Origin: Candidatus Acutalibacter stercorigallinarum
GTDB lineage: Bacteria > Bacillota > Clostridia > Oscillospirales > Acutalibacteraceae
DNA: 39,968 bases
Reading direction: 5' to 3'
Assembly (NCBI GenBank): GCA_019112625.1
Contig: DXIW01000002.1
Coordinates: 1 to 39,968 of the forward strand
A model generated the notes under the pieces. The model searched no databases, had not been told where the DNA came from, and saw only the letters and a program-made list of their open reading frames with translations. Position 1 is the stretch's first letter. Every line of letters starts with the position of its first letter. This document shows, piece after piece, positions 8,346-15,239 of this stretch. A program made the position numbers and the translations under genes.

Positions 8346-10016
8346 TTATACGCGGTATCTGCGGGGGAAGGTGAGGGTCACCGTGGTGCCCTTGCCCTCC
8401 TGGCTCTCCAGGCGCACCTGGGCGTTGTGGAAGGCCGCCCCGTGCTTGACGATGGACAGCCCCAGCCCCGTGCCGCCAATCTCCTTCGAGTGGCTCTTGT
8501 CCACCCGGTAAAAGCGCTCGAACACCCGCTCCCGGTCCGCGGCGGGGATGCCGATGCCCGTGTCCGCCACGGAGAGTGTCACGTCCCGGGAGCTTTCCGT
8601 CACGGTTATGGTGACGCTGCCCCCCTTGCGGTTGTATTTCACAGCGTTGTCGCACAGGTTGTACACCATCTCGTCCACAATGCTCCGCACCCCCCGGATG
8701 CTCCCGCTGCCCTGCACGGCCATGGTCAGGCCCTGCTCCTTGGCGGCGGGCTCCAGGCGGCGGGCCACATCCTGGGCCAGGGCCAGCAGGTCCAGGTCCT
8801 CGCTGGGCAGCTGCACGTCCTCCTCATCCAGCCGGGACAGCCGCATGATGTCGTCCACCAGGGAGATGAGCCGCTGGGACTCGGTGTAGATGTTCCCGGC
8901 AAAGCGGGGCACGTCCGCGGGCTTTACCATGCCGTTCTGCATGATCTCCGCGAACCCGGAGATGGAGGTGAGGGGCGTTTTCAGCTCGTGAGAGACGTTG
9001 GCGGTAAACTCCCGCCGCAGGTTCTCCCGTTCCTCCCGCTCGGTGATGTCCAGAATCACCACCACGGCGCCCACCACCTCCCCGTCCCGCAGGACAGGGT
9101 TGCCCAGCACCTGGCAGCAGCGGCCGTTCTCCCGCAGCAGCTGCTGGCTGCGTCTGCCGGAGAGGGCCCCGTCCACCACGCTGCGGAAGCTGGCGCTGCG
9201 GTTCAGGGTCAGGGCGCTCTCCCGGCCGCCCGCCTGGGCGTCGGGGCAGCCCAGCAGCCGCAGGGCGCTGGTGTTGTAGGAGAGGATGTCCGTGTGGTGG
9301 TCCAGCACCAAAAAGCCCTCGCTCATGTTCTCGGTGATGGCGGTGAACTCCTCCTGCTTCTCCTTCAGGGAGCGCATCTGGGCCGCGATGGCCTGGTTCT
9401 GCTTGCTGATCTTCGTCAGCAGGGGGGAGATCTCATCGTAGGTCAGGTTCTCCTCCGGGTGCTCCAGGTCCAGCTGGTTGATGGGCGCCACGATCCGCTT
9501 GGTCAGGTAGCTGGACAGCAGCGCCGTCACCGCCACCGCCAGCAGGGCCGAGCCCACGATCCAGGGCAGCACGCTGAACAGGGCGGCGAACACGGTGTCG
9601 GTGGTGGCGGCGATGCGCAGCACCCGGCCGTCCGTCAGCTTCACCGCGTAGTAGTAGGTCTTTTCGTCAATGGTGTCCGACATGCGGGTGACCTCCCCGG
9701 CGCCGGAGGCCAAGGCCTCCCGCACCTCTTCCCGGTCCCCGTGGTTCTCCATGGCGGCGGCGTCGGCCTGGCTGTCGTACAGCACCGTCCCGTCCCCGTC
9801 AATAAGGGTCAGCCGGTTTTTGGGATTTTTCAGGCTCTCCAGGTACCCGGCCCCCAGCTGCTCCACCGCCGGCTTGATGGAGTCGGCGGTCTCCCGCACC
9901 TCGTCCTCCATGTGGCCCGCGAAATCGCTGTAGTACACAACGGTGGTAAGCACCGTGGCCAGCAGCACTGTGATGAGGGCCGTAAGGCACATATTCAAAA
10001 AAATCTTTTTTCTCAT
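8346..10016 (-). CDS. phoR: Phosphate sensor histidine kinase PhoR-like
   Basis: This 556-residue membrane histidine kinase should autophosphorylate under phosphate limitation and donate to the response regulator encoded just before it. It has TM1 at about 7-29, an extracytoplasmic sensor at about 30-140, and TM2 at about 145-170. HAMP-like and coiled regions follow to 220, then a PAS domain (about 222-330). The H-box is FTANVSHELKTPLTS with His343. The ATPase domain has an N-box DNAVKYN, DTGIGIP and GGTGLGLSIVKH. The ATG at 10016 (MRKKIFLN) follows a GGAAAGAAG site; the open frame continues 29 codons upstream but lacks a better start. The kinase is the last gene of the pst-pho operon. Confidence 0.92.
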   Translation of the reverse strand: MRKKIFLNMCLTALITVLLATVLTTVVYYSDFAGHMEDEVRETADSIKPAVEQLGAGYLESLKNPKNRLTLIDGDGTVLYDSQADAAAMENHGDREEVREALASGAGEVTRMSDTIDEKTYYYAVKLTDGRVLRIAATTDTVFAALFSVLPWIVGSALLAVAVTALLSSYLTKRIVAPINQLDLEHPEENLTYDEISPLLTKISKQNQAIAAQMRSLKEKQEEFTAITENMSEGFLVLDHHTDILSYNTSALRLLGCPDAQAGGRESALTLNRSASFRSVVDGALSGRRSQQLLRENGRCCQVLGNPVLRDGEVVGAVVVILDITEREERENLRREFTANVSHELKTPLTSISGFAEIMQNGMVKPADVPRFAGNIYTESQRLISLVDDIMRLSRLDEEDVQLPSEDLDLLALAQDVARRLEPAAKEQGLTMAVQGSGSIRGVRSIVDEMVYNLCDNAVKYNRKGGSVTITVTESSRDVTLSVADTGIGIPAADRERVFERFYRVDKSHSKEIGGTGLGLSIVKHGAAFHNAQVRLESQEGKGTTVTLTFPRRYRV

Positions 10017-10044
10017 AGCACTTCTTTCCTTGTGGCGGATGAAA

Positions 10045-10731
10045 TTAGGCCAGGGGCTTCTCCTTGCTGTCGATCTTGTACCCCACGCCCCGCACTGTCT
10101 CAATCAGGGAGCCCAGCTCCCCCAGTTTCTGCCGCAGGGTGCGCACGTGGACATCCACCGTGCGGGTCTCCCCGTCAAAGTCGTAGCCCCAGATCTTCGT
10201 CAGCAGCTTGTCCCGTGTGAGCACCATGCCGTCGTTCTCCAGCAGGGTGCGCAGCAGCTCGAACTCCTTCAAGGTCAGCTGCACCTCCCGGCCATCCACC
10301 TGCACCAGGTGCCTGGCGGGGGAGACCCGCAGCCTGCCCAGCACGTATTCGGGGGCCTCGCCCTCTGCCTCGGTACGGCGCAGCAGGGCTTTTACCCGGG
10401 CCACCAGCTCCATCATGCCGAAGGGCTTGGGCAGGTAGTCGTCGGCGCCGCTGTCCAGGCCCAGCACCTTGTCGTACTCGCTGTCCTTGGCGGTGAGCAT
10501 CATCACCGGGATCTTCTGGGTGGCGGGGGCCGCGCGCAGCTTTTTCAAAACCTGCAGCCCGTCCTCCTCCGGCAGCATGATGTCCAGAAGCACCAGGCTG
10601 GGGGCCTCCTGCTCCACGGCGGCCCAGAACTGGCTGGGCCGGGCAAAGCCCTGGGTGTCGAACCCGGTGGAGTGAAGGGTGTAGGCCACCAGCTCCCGGA
10701 TGCTGTTGTCGTCCTCAAGAATATAGATCAT
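10045..10731 (-). CDS. phoP: Response regulator PhoP/PhoB-like, OmpR family
   Basis: This 228-residue two-domain regulator has a receiver domain at 1-118 with acidic residues EDD at 6-8, phosphoacceptor Asp50 (LVLLDIMLPEEDG), the Thr of MMLTAKD and the Lys of LPKPF. A winged-helix DNA-binding domain at about 130-222 shows LTLKEFELLRTLLENDGMVLTRDKLL and RTVDVHVRTLRQKLG. The partner is the kinase 28 bases downstream. The target is likely the pstS promoter with TTTAAC/TTTTAC repeats at 15150-15194. It sits after phoU in the operon. The gene name rests on context with pst and phoU as well as on sequence. Confidence 0.93.
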   Translation of the reverse strand: MIYILEDDNSIRELVAYTLHSTGFDTQGFARPSQFWAAVEQEAPSLVLLDIMLPEEDGLQVLKKLRAAPATQKIPVMMLTAKDSEYDKVLGLDSGADDYLPKPFGMMELVARVKALLRRTEAEGEAPEYVLGRLRVSPARHLVQVDGREVQLTLKEFELLRTLLENDGMVLTRDKLLTKIWGYDFDGETRTVDVHVRTLRQKLGELGSLIETVRGVGYKIDSKEKPLA

Positions 10732-10773: not shown

Positions 10774-11421
10774 TTAGAGAGATTCCTTCTGGCCGGTGAT
10801 GGCGTATTGCACCCACTCGGCCACATTCACGGCGTGGTCGCCGATGCGCTCGAAATACTTGGCCACCATCAGCAGGTCCACGCAGAACTCGCCGCTCTCC
10901 CGGTTCTCCCCGATGAGGGCGATGAGTTCCCCCTTCACCCGGTTGAACATCTGGTCCACCGCGGCGTCGTCCGCCATGACCTTCTGGGCCAGGGGCAGGT
11001 CCCGCCGGACAAAGGAGTCCACGCTCTCGGTGACCATCTGGATGGTGGCCTCGGCCATCTCCTTGATGTGCACCTTGCTCCCGGCGATGTCCCCCTGGGT
11101 CAGGTAGGGCAGCAGCTCGGCGATGTCCGAGGCCTGGTCGCCGATGCGCTCCAGGTCGGAGATCATCTTCAGCGCCGAGGAGATCTGCCGCAGGTCCCCG
11201 GCCACCGGTTGCTGCTGCAGCAGCAGCCGCATGCACAGCCCCTCAATCTCCCGCTCCTTCTGGTCGATCTCCAGCTCGATGGGCTTTACCTGCTTGGCCA
11301 GCTTCAGGTCGTTTTCCAGCAAGGCCTTGGCGGCGGTGGAGATGGCGTCCTCGCACAGGGCCCCGGTCTTGATGAGCTCTACGTTGAGCTGTTCCAACTG
11401 CTCTTCAAATTTATTGCGCAT
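10774..11421 (-). CDS. phoU: Phosphate uptake regulator PhoU
   Basis: This 215-residue all-helical protein has the two three-helix repeats of PhoU. Each repeat carries a metal-binding signature: SDLERIGDQASD near residue 90 and KYFERIGDHAVN near residue 190. PhoU links the Pst transporter to PhoR and limits phosphate uptake. It starts three bases after the pstB stop, so translation is coupled. The length is normal and nothing is missing. A gap of about 42 bases separates it from phoP, with a GGGGAGG site. Confidence 0.96.
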   Translation of the reverse strand: MRNKFEEQLEQLNVELIKTGALCEDAISTAAKALLENDLKLAKQVKPIELEIDQKEREIEGLCMRLLLQQQPVAGDLRQISSALKMISDLERIGDQASDIAELLPYLTQGDIAGSKVHIKEMAEATIQMVTESVDSFVRRDLPLAQKVMADDAAVDQMFNRVKGELIALIGENRESGEFCVDLLMVAKYFERIGDHAVNVAEWVQYAITGQKESL

Positions 11422-11424
11422 GGT

Positions 11425-12174
11425 TTAGCCGAACCTCCCGGTGATGTAGTCTTCGGTGCGTTTGTCCTGGGGCATAGAGAACAGGGACTCCGTGGGGCCC
11501 GCCTCCACCAGCTCTCCCAGCAGGAAGAAGGCCGTCTTGTCCGAGATACGGGCCGCCTGCTGCATGTTGTGGGTGACGATAACAATAGTATACTTATTTT
11601 TCAGCTCCATGGCAAGGTCCTCAATCTTCGAGGTGGAGATGGGGTCCAGGGCGCTGGTGGGCTCGTCCATCAGCAGCACGTCGGGCTCCACCGCCAGGGC
11701 CCTGGCGATGCACAGCCGCTGCTGCTGCCCGCCGGAGAGGCCCAGGGCGCTCTTCTTCAGCCGGTCCTTCAGCTCGTCCCAAATGGCCGCGTCCCGCAGG
11801 GACTTCTCCACAATCTCGTCCAGCTTCACCTTCGAGCGGATGCCGTGGGTGCGGGGCCCGTAGGCGATGTTGTCGTACACGCTCATGGGGAAGGGGTTGG
11901 GCTTCTGGAACACCATGCCCACCCGCTTGCGCAGGTGGTTCACGTCCACGTTGCCGTAGATGTCCTCCCCGTCCAGCAGAATCTCCCCGGTGATCTTGCA
12001 CCCCTCCACCAGGTCGTTCATGCGGTTCAGGGATTTGAGGAGAGTGGACTTGCCGCAGCCCGAGGGGCCGATAAAGGCCGTCACCTCGTTGGGGGCGATG
12101 TTCAGGTTCACGGTTTTCAGGGCCTTAAAATTCCCGTAGTATAAGTCTAGATTCCGGATGGTAAATTTATCCAT
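11425..12174 (-). CDS. pstB: Phosphate ABC transporter ATP-binding protein PstB
   Basis: This 249-residue ATPase powers high-affinity phosphate import. Walker A is GPSGCGKST near residue 33, the signature is LSGGQQQR, and Walker B is [13 protein letters not shown] followed by the switch His of VTHNMQQA. The typical PstB features [23 protein letters not shown] and [17 protein letters not shown] are present. The length matches E. coli PstB closely. It lies 29 bases after pstA and three before phoU. Confidence 0.97.
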
Positions 12175-12203: not shown

Positions 12204-13115
12204 TTACGCCTTGGTGAATTTCCGGGCCACAAAGGAGGACAGGGCGTTGATGCCCACCACCAGCACCAGCAGCACCACGGCGGTGGCGTAGGCGGCCTCC
12301 CGGGCCAGGCCTTCGTTCAAGAGGTTATACATGTGCACCGCCAGGGTGCGGCCGGAGTCCATGGGGTCGATGGCCACTTTCGCCACCGAGCCGGAGGTGA
12401 ACATCAGCGCCGCGGTCTCGCCCACGATGCGCCCGATGCCCAGGATGATGCCGGACAGGATGCCGGGCATGGCCGAGGGCAGGATGATGCGGAACACCGT
12501 GCGCAGCTTGCCGGCCCCCAGGCCGAAGCTGCCCTCCCGGAAGGAGTCGGGCACGCTCATCAGGGCCTCCTCGGTGGTGCGCATAATGAGGGGCAGGATC
12601 ATAATGGCCATGGTCAGGGCCCCGCCCACCATGGAGTACCCCCAGCCAAAGCTGATGACGAAGAACAGGTAGCCGAACAGGCCGTACACAATGGAGGGGA
12701 TGCCGGACAGGGTCTCGGCGGTGATGCGCACCACCCCCACCAGCTTGTTGCCCCGCCGGGCGTACTCCACCAGGTAGATGGCGGAGAAGATGCCCACCGG
12801 CACCGCCACCACCAGGGACAGCACCGTCATCAGCACAGTGTTGATGAGGGCGGGCAGCAGGGAGGCGTTCTCGCTGGTAAACTCCAGCTCGAACAGGGAG
12901 GGCTTCAGGTTGGGCAGGCCCATAATCACGATGTAGGCCACCAAAAACAGCAGTACCGCCACGGTGAGCACGGCCGCCGCCGTCACCAAAATGCGCAGCA
13001 CCAGGGACAGGGGAGAGGCCTTGTACTGCAGCATGGTCTGCTTGAAGGTGGGGGTATTGATGGCCTGGACGGCCGCCTCCCCCTGGGCGCCGGCTTTCTT
13101 AAAAGGGTTGCTCAT
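12204..13115 (-). CDS. pstA: Phosphate ABC transporter permease PstA
   Basis: This 303-residue inner-membrane permease has six predicted transmembrane segments. The first is at about 38-65 after a polar N-terminal tail. The EAA cytoplasmic loop, SFREGSFGLGAGKLRTVFRI, couples to PstB, and SGIPSIVYGLFG is shared with PstC. Its start overlaps the pstC stop by four bases (13112-13115). It pairs with PstC to form the channel. Confidence 0.96.
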   Translation of the reverse strand: MSNPFKKAGAQGEAAVQAINTPTFKQTMLQYKASPLSLVLRILVTAAAVLTVAVLLFLVAYIVIMGLPNLKPSLFELEFTSENASLLPALINTVLMTVLSLVVAVPVGIFSAIYLVEYARRGNKLVGVVRITAETLSGIPSIVYGLFGYLFFVISFGWGYSMVGGALTMAIMILPLIMRTTEEALMSVPDSFREGSFGLGAGKLRTVFRIILPSAMPGILSGIILGIGRIVGETAALMFTSGSVAKVAIDPMDSGRTLAVHMYNLLNEGLAREAAYATAVVLLVLVVGINALSSFVARKFTKA

Positions 13116-14029
13116 GCCTGGGCCTCCTTTCTCTTCAGCACCGAGAACAGCAGGTTGATGATGAGGATGAACACGAACAGCACCACGCCGGTGGCGATGA
13201 GGGCCTCCCGGTGCAGGCCGGTGGAGTAGCCCATCTCGGTGACGATGTTGCCCGTCAGGGTGCGCACGCCGTCTAAAATGCTCCCGGGGATGCGGGGCTG
13301 GTTGCCGGCGATCATAATCACAGCCATGGTCTCGCCGATGGCCCGGCCCACCCCCAGGATGATCCCGGCCAGGATGCCGGACTTGGCCGCGGGCACGGTG
13401 ACGAAGAACACGCTGCGCTCGTGGCTGGCCCCCAGGGCCAAAGCGCCCTCGTAGTAGCTGTCGGGCACGGCCCGGATGGCGCTCTCCGACACGCCGATGA
13501 TGGTGGGCAGGATCATAATGCCCAGCAGGATGGAGGCGGTGAGGATGCTCTTGCCGTGGTTGCTGCCGAAGAGGGCCTGCATCATGGGCACGATGACCAT
13601 CAGCCCGAAGAAGCCGTAGACGATGGAGGGGATGCCCGCCAGCAGGTCCACTGCGGGCTTCAGGACCTTATACAGCCCCTTGGGACAGAACTTGGCCATG
13701 TAGATGGCGGCCAGCAGCCCCAGGGGCACCCCCACGATGATGGCCCCGGCGGTGACGTAGATACTGCCCAAAATCATGGGGAAGATGCCGTACATGTCGG
13801 CGTTGGGCCGCCACTCGGTGCCCAGGAGGAACTCCACGGGCCCGATCTCGGCGATGGCGGGGATGCCGTTGGCGAACAGGTAGATGCAGATCAGGGCCAC
13901 GCACAGGATGGAGATACAGGCGGCCACCAGAAAGACGATGCGCATCACCGTCTCCCGCAGATTCCCTTTCCGGCTGCCCAGCAGGGACTTTTTCCCCTTG
14001 CTCTGGGCGCCGGAGCGATTCATATCCAT
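13112..14029 (-). CDS. pstC: Phosphate ABC transporter permease PstC
   Basis: This 305-residue permease has six transmembrane segments, the first at about 28-53. It has LLAGIPSIVYGFFGLMV and the EAA loop SYYEGALALGASHERSVFF. A GAGGAGG site at 14041-14047 serves the ATG at 14029; a second in-frame ATG two codons on is possible. An attenuator-like hairpin separates it from pstS, and pstA overlaps its end. Confidence 0.96.
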   Translation of the reverse strand: MDMNRSGAQSKGKKSLLGSRKGNLRETVMRIVFLVAACISILCVALICIYLFANGIPAIAEIGPVEFLLGTEWRPNADMYGIFPMILGSIYVTAGAIIVGVPLGLLAAIYMAKFCPKGLYKVLKPAVDLLAGIPSIVYGFFGLMVIVPMMQALFGSNHGKSILTASILLGIMILPTIIGVSESAIRAVPDSYYEGALALGASHERSVFFVTVPAAKSGILAGIILGVGRAIGETMAVIMIAGNQPRIPGSILDGVRTLTGNIVTEMGYSTGLHREALIATGVVLFVFILIINLLFSVLKRKEAQA

Positions 14030-14109: not shown

Positions 14110-15078
14110 TCAGGCCACTTCGCTCCAGTCGGTGACGTTGCCCAGGTAGATGTCCCGCACCTGCTCGGTGGTCAGGTCCTCGATGGGGGATTCGTTGTTC
14201 ACGATGATGGCGATGCCGTCGGTGGCGATGACCGTGTTCACCAGGCCGGCGTCCAGCTCTTCCTGCTTCAGCTCGCGGGAGGCCATGCCGATGTCGCTCA
14301 TGCCGTTGATGGCGTCGGTCATACCGGTGGTGGAGTCAGAGGTCTGCAGCTCGATCTCCACGTTGGGGTTCACGGCGTTGTAGCCCTCGATGAGCTTCTG
14401 CATCAGGGGGGAGACAGAGGAGGAACCGGAGATGGTGACAGAGCCGGAAGCGCCGTTGCTCTCAAAGGCCTCCACATCGGCTACGGGGATGTAGTCCTCC
14501 GCCACAATGGCCTGGCCCTCAGTGCTCATGATGTAATTCATAAAGTCCTGGGCGGCCTCGTTCTGCAGCTCGCCCTTGGTGGCCACGTTGAAGGGACGGG
14601 ACACAGTGTAGCTGCCGTTCTCGATGTTCTCGGCGGTGGGCTCCACGCCGTCGATCTTCACACCCTTCACGGTGTCGTCCAGAGAACCCAGGGAGATGTA
14701 CCCGATGGCCCCGGTGTTGCCGGCCACAGTCTGGATCACGACTTCGGTGGAGTTGGAGATCTCGGCGTCCACGGTGGTCATGTCGTTGCCCTCTTCGTCC
14801 TCTACGCCAATCAGCTCAACGAAAGCGCCCCGGGTGCCGGAACCGTCCTCACGGGAGACCACGGTGATGGGGCCCTCAGCGGCAGTGCCCTCAGTGGAAG
14901 CGGCCTCGCCGCTCTCCTCAGAGGCCTCGCTGGAAGCCTCAGAAGAAGCCTCGCTGGAAGCGGAGGAGGTGGAGGCGGAAGCGCTGCTCTCAGAGGAGCT
15001 GCTCTCGGTGTTGCCGCAGGCGGCCAGCATAGAGACGCACAGCGCGGCGGCCATCAAAATGGAAATTGCTTTTTTCAT
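14110..15078 (-). CDS. pstS: Circularly permuted phosphate-binding lipoprotein PstS
   Basis: This 322-residue substrate-binding lipoprotein captures phosphate outside the membrane for PstCAB. The signal peptide has lipobox LAAC with Cys21. A Ser/Glu/Ala-rich tether follows at 22-68. The mature fold is in swapped order. Residues 69-203 are what is normally the C-terminal half (PITVVSREDGSGTRGAF, GAIGYISLGSLDD, EGQAIV..YIPV). Residues 212-322 are what is normally the N-terminal half (GSVTISGSSSVSPLM, STTGMTDAI, SDIGMASREL, IYLGNVTDWSEV). All phosphate-binding loops remain present. The ATG at 15078 follows AAGGAAGG; the open frame to 15261 lacks a signal peptide start. The order suggests a circular permutation, not a rearranged assembly, because the frame is intact and both ends fall at a domain hinge. 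Confidence 0.93.
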   Translation of the reverse strand: MKKAISILMAAALCVSMLAACGNTESSSSESSASASTSSASSEASSEASSEASEESGEAASTEGTAAEGPITVVSREDGSGTRGAFVELIGVEDEEGNDMTTVDAEISNSTEVVIQTVAGNTGAIGYISLGSLDDTVKGVKIDGVEPTAENIENGSYTVSRPFNVATKGELQNEAAQDFMNYIMSTEGQAIVAEDYIPVADVEAFESNGASGSVTISGSSSVSPLMQKLIEGYNAVNPNVEIELQTSDSTTGMTDAINGMSDIGMASRELKQEELDAGLVNTVIATDGIAIIVNNESPIEDLTTEQVRDIYLGNVTDWSEVA

Positions 15079-15133: not shown

Positions 15134-15194
15134 AGTGTACGACAGCTTTGTAAAATGTAAAACCGGCGGTTTGTTAAATCGAGGTTAAGTAAAA
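15134..15194 (-). promoter_or_regulatory. pst operon promoter with Pho-box-like repeats
   Basis: On the minus strand CTTAAC and TTTAAC lie 11 bases apart (15184-15189 and 15173-15178). TTTTACATTTTACA follows at 15150-15163, then a TACACT -10-like box at 15134-15139. Gram-positive PhoP binds TTAACA-like direct repeats with 11-base period, replacing a -35 box. The repeats are imperfect, so this is a candidate only. Confidence 0.5.
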
Positions 15195-15239
15195 TCCCTC
15201 TTTTTCCCGGGTTTGTAAAATTGCCCAGCTTCCCAGTAT

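Follow-up and report, generated by a model that had tools for sequence, protein, structure and literature searches.

The window analysed here, a stretch of 39,968 nucleotides (positions 1 to 39,968 of contig DXIW01000002.1, assembly GCA_019112625.1, Candidatus Acutalibacter stercorigallinarum), carries a gene whose product we judge, with a probability of roughly 0.93, to be the phosphate-binding lipoprotein (PstS) of a Pst ATP-binding cassette (ABC) importer in a naturally circularly permuted form. The open reading frame (ORF) translates without interruption to 322 residues and a stop codon. The motifs SREDGSGTR (residues 75 to 83) and GAIGY (123 to 127) of the canonical second half stand ahead of SGSSSV (217 to 222) of the canonical first half, and the chain ends in DWSEVA. 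An earlier note, made from the sequence alone, had described the halves as swapped in this manner and the protein as a natural circular permutation of PstS; the translation, the split profile matches, the effect of rotation and a collinear match to a crystal structure bear this out.

The profile PF12849 matches the protein with 130.7 bits (gathering cut-off 27), the match being split into two stretches. TIGR02136 also matches the whole protein in its native order in two stretches, with 194.5 bits, below the curated cut-off of 206.6. When the protein was rotated (residues 210 to 322 followed by 68 to 209), TIGR02136 gave 209.7 bits in a single stretch spanning profile positions 40 to 294 of 295; the identical 255 residues unrotated gave 197.8 bits in two stretches. 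The gain in bits is modest and the single continuous stretch is the telling point. Since the protein passes TIGR02136 only when rotated, we class it as a permuted PstS variant and not as a plain TIGR02136 member; in practice, the NCBI PstS subfamily cut-off misses it in native order. Of four other proteins scanned, two permuted ones fell below the cut-off (198.6 and 163.4 bits) and two canonical ones above it (282.4 and 275.1 bits). Every one of the 38 permuted proteins in alignment A2 matches TIGR02136 at an E value of 1e-10 or better.

Against the crystal structure 4H1X (SP_2084 of Streptococcus pneumoniae, released 2012-10-17) the protein gives one collinear match, residues 66 to 321 aligning to 6 to 264 with an E value of 1.6e-55; against the canonical PstS of Clostridium perfringens (4Q8R/4GD5) it gives two matches in swapped order. 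That the Pfam and NCBIfam matches come as two separate stretches might speak for a chance fusion of two unrelated truncated binding-protein domains, with no permuted PstS at all. The two stretches are, however, complementary halves of one profile, which rotation turns into one continuous match, and the entire chain of the structure model superposes on 4H1X (252 aligned residues, root-mean-square deviation 1.2 Å, 42% identity). The structure prediction, proposed as a check in the earlier note, returned the fold of 4H1X, and we give chance fusion next to no credence. The source genome is a draft of 70 contigs and 85.96% completeness, which could raise the suspicion of a pseudogene or an assembly artefact. 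This too we consider extremely improbable: the frame is open, the operon is intact (as had been claimed, each other member being an open ORF that carries the Pfam domains expected of it), 4H1X has the same half order, and so have all 80 of the named loci, with records titled as the strains Coprococcus comes MSK.16.63, Dorea sp. D27 and Intestinimonas butyriciproducens An565 among them. Being the top 80 out of 497 relatives, these loci form a sample biased towards the query.

The structure model places the cut in lobe 2 and the junction of the old canonical ends in lobe 1. The chain starts before the SREDGSGTR strand and ends after the YLGxxxxW helix, and the canonical lobe-1 termini are fused through a loop some 12 residues long. 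The suggestion of one common hinge position for the two breakpoints did not hold, as the hinge strand (residues 279 to 294) lies inside the second block and the cut elsewhere. This strand matches the 16-residue hinge strand of PhoX (PMC5439949), whose phosphate contacts are named in the same source. A signal peptide and a Ser/Glu-rich tether had been assigned to the new N-terminus, which agrees with the structure model and with the conservation of Cys-21, invariant across 16 rows of alignment A1 and 38 rows of alignment A2. The tether is largely disordered in the model (predicted local distance difference test, pLDDT, below 50 at residues 21 to 43, 47 to 54 and 56 to 59) and its length differs between aligned relatives.

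As a reference for the pocket we used eight positions, which we take to be the phosphate contacts of E. coli PstS. They align to Ser-220, Ser-221, Ser-249, Ser-267, Arg-76, Ser-80, Gly-81 and Thr-82 of the window protein, six of the eight keeping the E. coli residue or a Ser/Thr swap. The fold retains its two lobes and the greater part of its phosphate pocket, so that the protein should work as any PstS: anchored by its lipid, it would capture phosphate between the lobes by closing about the hinge strand and deliver it to PstC–PstA, with ATP supplied via PstB and regulation by PhoU and a two-component pair. Phosphate binding and transport by the window copy are inferred. Weighing against this assignment, a sequential structure aligner matched canonical PstS chains to the protein over about half only, and Phe-11 and Asp-56 of E. 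coli PstS are replaced by Ser-221 and Ser-267. Both serines also occur in the canonical 4Q8R and 1TWY (the latter from Vibrio cholerae), so that the changes are traits of the family at large rather than of the permutation. According to PMC5439949, Asp-56 serves to tell phosphate apart from other oxyanions, and its replacement might indicate that the ligand of the permuted protein is not phosphate. We regard this as quite improbable given that the canonical structures share the serine, that 4GD5, near-identical to 4Q8R where aligned, bears a title describing a phosphate-bound structure, and that the operon holds PstCAB-type genes and PhoU. At low phosphate the pst1 transcript of S. pneumoniae rises about 200-fold, and when phosphate is limiting, cells deleted for pst1-phoU1 show an initial uptake rate lowered about twofold (PMC4913102). 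These data are operon-level evidence for a working permuted PstS, and by analogy would extend to the window copy.

A single old origin of the permuted form in Firmicutes is favoured. The 147-row concatenated tree (76 permuted, 67 canonical and four tandem copies; 32 of the 80 named loci were used, and L128, L039, L059, L148, L033 and L198 were omitted) requires two changes of the permuted label, against an average of 49.2 for shuffled labels. For the half trees (79 rows each) eight long-branch rows, including the permuted L036, were dropped before 35 of 75 permuted rows and 44 of 64 others were taken; for a careful concatenated tree (78 rows) nine were dropped, again including L036, before 35 of 75 and 43 of 63 were taken. 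Permuted proteins form one group in the C-half tree, with a Shimodaira–Hasegawa-like approximate likelihood ratio (SH-aLRT) support of 94. The N-half tree and the 78-row concatenated tree each need two changes, and in both the one-clade tree has the higher likelihood (approximately unbiased test, p-AU, 0.926 and 0.566 respectively). One clade of permuted proteins that includes 4H1X is therefore compatible with the trees, although not established by them. The genome survey and the trees, both called for in the earlier note, found the permuted form to be common and a single clade not rejected.

The common joining loop also favours a single old origin; from the sequences we read it as a shared derived feature, independent of the trees. 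It measures 12 to 16 residues in 126 permuted ORFs (three duplicates counted), and of 123 permuted ORFs, 116 have a Tyr or Phe at exactly 13 residues ahead of GSSS and 122 have one at 13 to 15. The criterion defined in this analysis was a loop of 12 to 16 residues with an aromatic about 13 before GSSS, and the window protein, with a loop of 12 residues and Phe-205, fits it. In canonical ORFs the C-terminus lies 2 to 24 residues past the second half (64 of 64; within 13 in 63 of 64). The aromatic segment was not found in either of two different tandem PstS joints.

These joints belong to L131 (genome G503) and L132 (G460), ORFs of 531 and 544 residues that hold two full canonical copies in the order N-C-N-C, with a histidine kinase gene before and a permease gene after. 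Natural in-frame PstS–PstS tandems such as these show the first step of duplication and loss to be possible. As to the proposal that a tandem duplication shed its outer halves to give the permuted gene, this would be the most likely route, but the known tandems group with canonical proteins and so represent a parallel case, not the ancestor. Counting against the single-origin account are the two changes needed by the free concatenated trees, the bootstrap (unsettled), in which 44% of 200 trees unite the permuted rows, and the permuted L036, which lacks the joining-loop aromatic. The same two changes, together with the long branch that L035 and L133 have to themselves, could mean that the permutation happened repeatedly, the L035/L133 lineage perhaps having acquired it on its own. 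We think this unlikely: the one-clade tree has the higher likelihood and is not rejected, the C half already gives one group, and the divergent L035, L133, L032 and L034, as well as 4H1X, carry the loop aromatic at or near the same place.

The guess that permuted relatives exist in other gut Firmicutes proved right, many being found in the family, the phylum and the named loci. Within the window's family, 29 of the 150 genomes sampled carry a permuted copy (its own genome counted; the copy in G135 in a broken frame), as do at least 14 of 398 sampled within its phylum (own genome counted). Any match at all, canonical copies and signal-peptide matches included, occurs in 97 of the 150. Three genomes (G102, G095 and G179) hold both forms, which would allow canonical and permuted PstS to be compared within one cell; G112 may do so too, although its second match (L182, of canonical type) is doubtful, with an end branch of 4.6, and is perhaps no PstS. 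Among the matches listed (15 of 31 records), plasmids of Treponema saccharophilum and Monoglobus carry copies matching in one piece, both annotated only as ‘substrate-binding domain-containing protein’. Permuted pstS was also seen at L086, L087 and L089, in records titled Mailhella, Slackia and Desulfovibrionaceae. The three loci and the T. saccharophilum plasmid reflect either gene transfer or, for the loci, mis-binned contigs. In G135 the permuted pstS (L033/L198) is split across two reading frames, a broken gene or an assembly error.

The pst locus lies wholly on the minus strand and reads pstS-pstC-pstA-pstB-phoU, with the response regulator gene and then the histidine kinase gene next in line (Table 1). 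Among permuted ORFs with at least 900 nt downstream, pstC is the next detected pst/pho gene, within 400 nt, in 115 of 118 (the duplicates L128, L039 and L059, which are the same as or near-identical to other loci, were omitted, and five ORFs lacked room). The exceptions are L095 and L115, where none was detected, and L078, where a second permuted pstS precedes pstC; these two adjacent permuted genes lie at L078:394-2327 in a record titled Anaerotignum. Of 25 canonical ORFs with enough room, 20 have pstC at a distance of up to 400 nt. Upstream of the window pstS, on its strand, 15149-15219 holds four of the 29 TT(A/T/C)A(C/T)A sites that the window has on its two strands. This cluster is possibly a PhoP-like control region, although it lies in AT-rich sequence and its sites are spaced by 42, 16 and 7.

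Table 1 Features of the pst locus in the window
Feature	Position	Strand	Basis
Permuted pstS gene	14110..15078	(-)	translation; PF12849/TIGR02136 matches; structure model; 4H1X match
Signal peptide and lipobox ending at Cys-21 (residues 1-21)	15016..15078	(-)	Cys-21 conservation; helix 2-17 in model
Ser/Glu-rich tether (residues 22-67)	14878..15015	(-)	model pLDDT and alignment
Canonical second half, placed first (residues 68-199), with SREDGSGTR and GAIGY	14482..14877	(-)	aligns to 4Q8R 117-242, 1TWY 143-281
Joining loop (residues 200-211), old C end to old N end, with Phe-205	14446..14481	(-)	conserved loop aromatic
Canonical first half, placed last (residues 212-322), with SGSSSV and YLGxxxxW	14113..14445	(-)	aligns to 4Q8R 3-113, 4EXL 4-115
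Hinge strand (residues 279-294)	14197..14244	(-)	DSSP of model
pstC, permease	13112..14029	(-)	PF00528; name from operon position
pstA, permease	12204..13115	(-)	PF00528; name from operon position
pstB, ATPase	11425..12174	(-)	PF00005
phoU	10774..11421	(-)	PF01895
PhoB/PhoP-like response regulator	10045..10731	(-)	PF00072 and PF00486
PhoR-like histidine kinase	8346..10016	(-)	PF00512 and PF02518 within 8346-10019; start chosen at Met of MRKKIF

Permuted PstS as a kind has been known structurally since 4H1X, and permuted binding proteins are known from MglB-2. By title and start of abstract, no description of permuted PstS was found among the matches listed in the open-licence PMC literature (subscription papers and permuted-structure databases being outside this scope), nor was the PDB code 4H1X found in that literature. 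As far as could be seen, the window PstS is a new member of a structurally known but apparently unremarked kind. We would give about even odds to a broader proposition, in which an old permuted PstS subfamily of single origin, marked by the common joining loop, has in part displaced the canonical form among Clostridia and spread to further groups. Its lipid anchor would sit on lobe 2 instead of lobe 1, which may be an adaptation to membrane tethering, and despite the crystallisation of one member by 2012 the subfamily would have escaped description. Such proteins offer a large natural set for studying how a binding protein tolerates permutation and if ABC import depends on where the anchor is attached.

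Among the closest known systems, 4H1X has the same permuted order, the same cut and the same kind of joining loop. Its source, S. pneumoniae, belongs to a different class of Firmicutes from the window organism. Neither the title of 4H1X nor the parts of PMC4913102 and PMC6722419 cited here call the SP_2084 protein permuted. We note that SP_2084 is named ‘PstS 2’ in the PDB and is the first gene of operon Pst1 in PMC6722419. Canonical PstS of the TIGR02136 type (4Q8R/4GD5, 1TWY) has the same halves and the same pocket motifs; in the window protein the half order is reversed and the N-terminus, hence any anchor, is on the other lobe. The tandem ORFs share the internal C-half-to-N-half junction but consist of two full canonical copies, have a shorter joint without the aromatic and group with canonical proteins. 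MglB-2 (Tp0684) of Treponema pallidum is likewise a naturally circularly permuted substrate-binding lipoprotein, with relatives in Gram-positive gut bacteria, and its authors raise a possible adaptation to anchoring; it differs in its type I fold, its glucose ligand and its cut point (PMC4990184).
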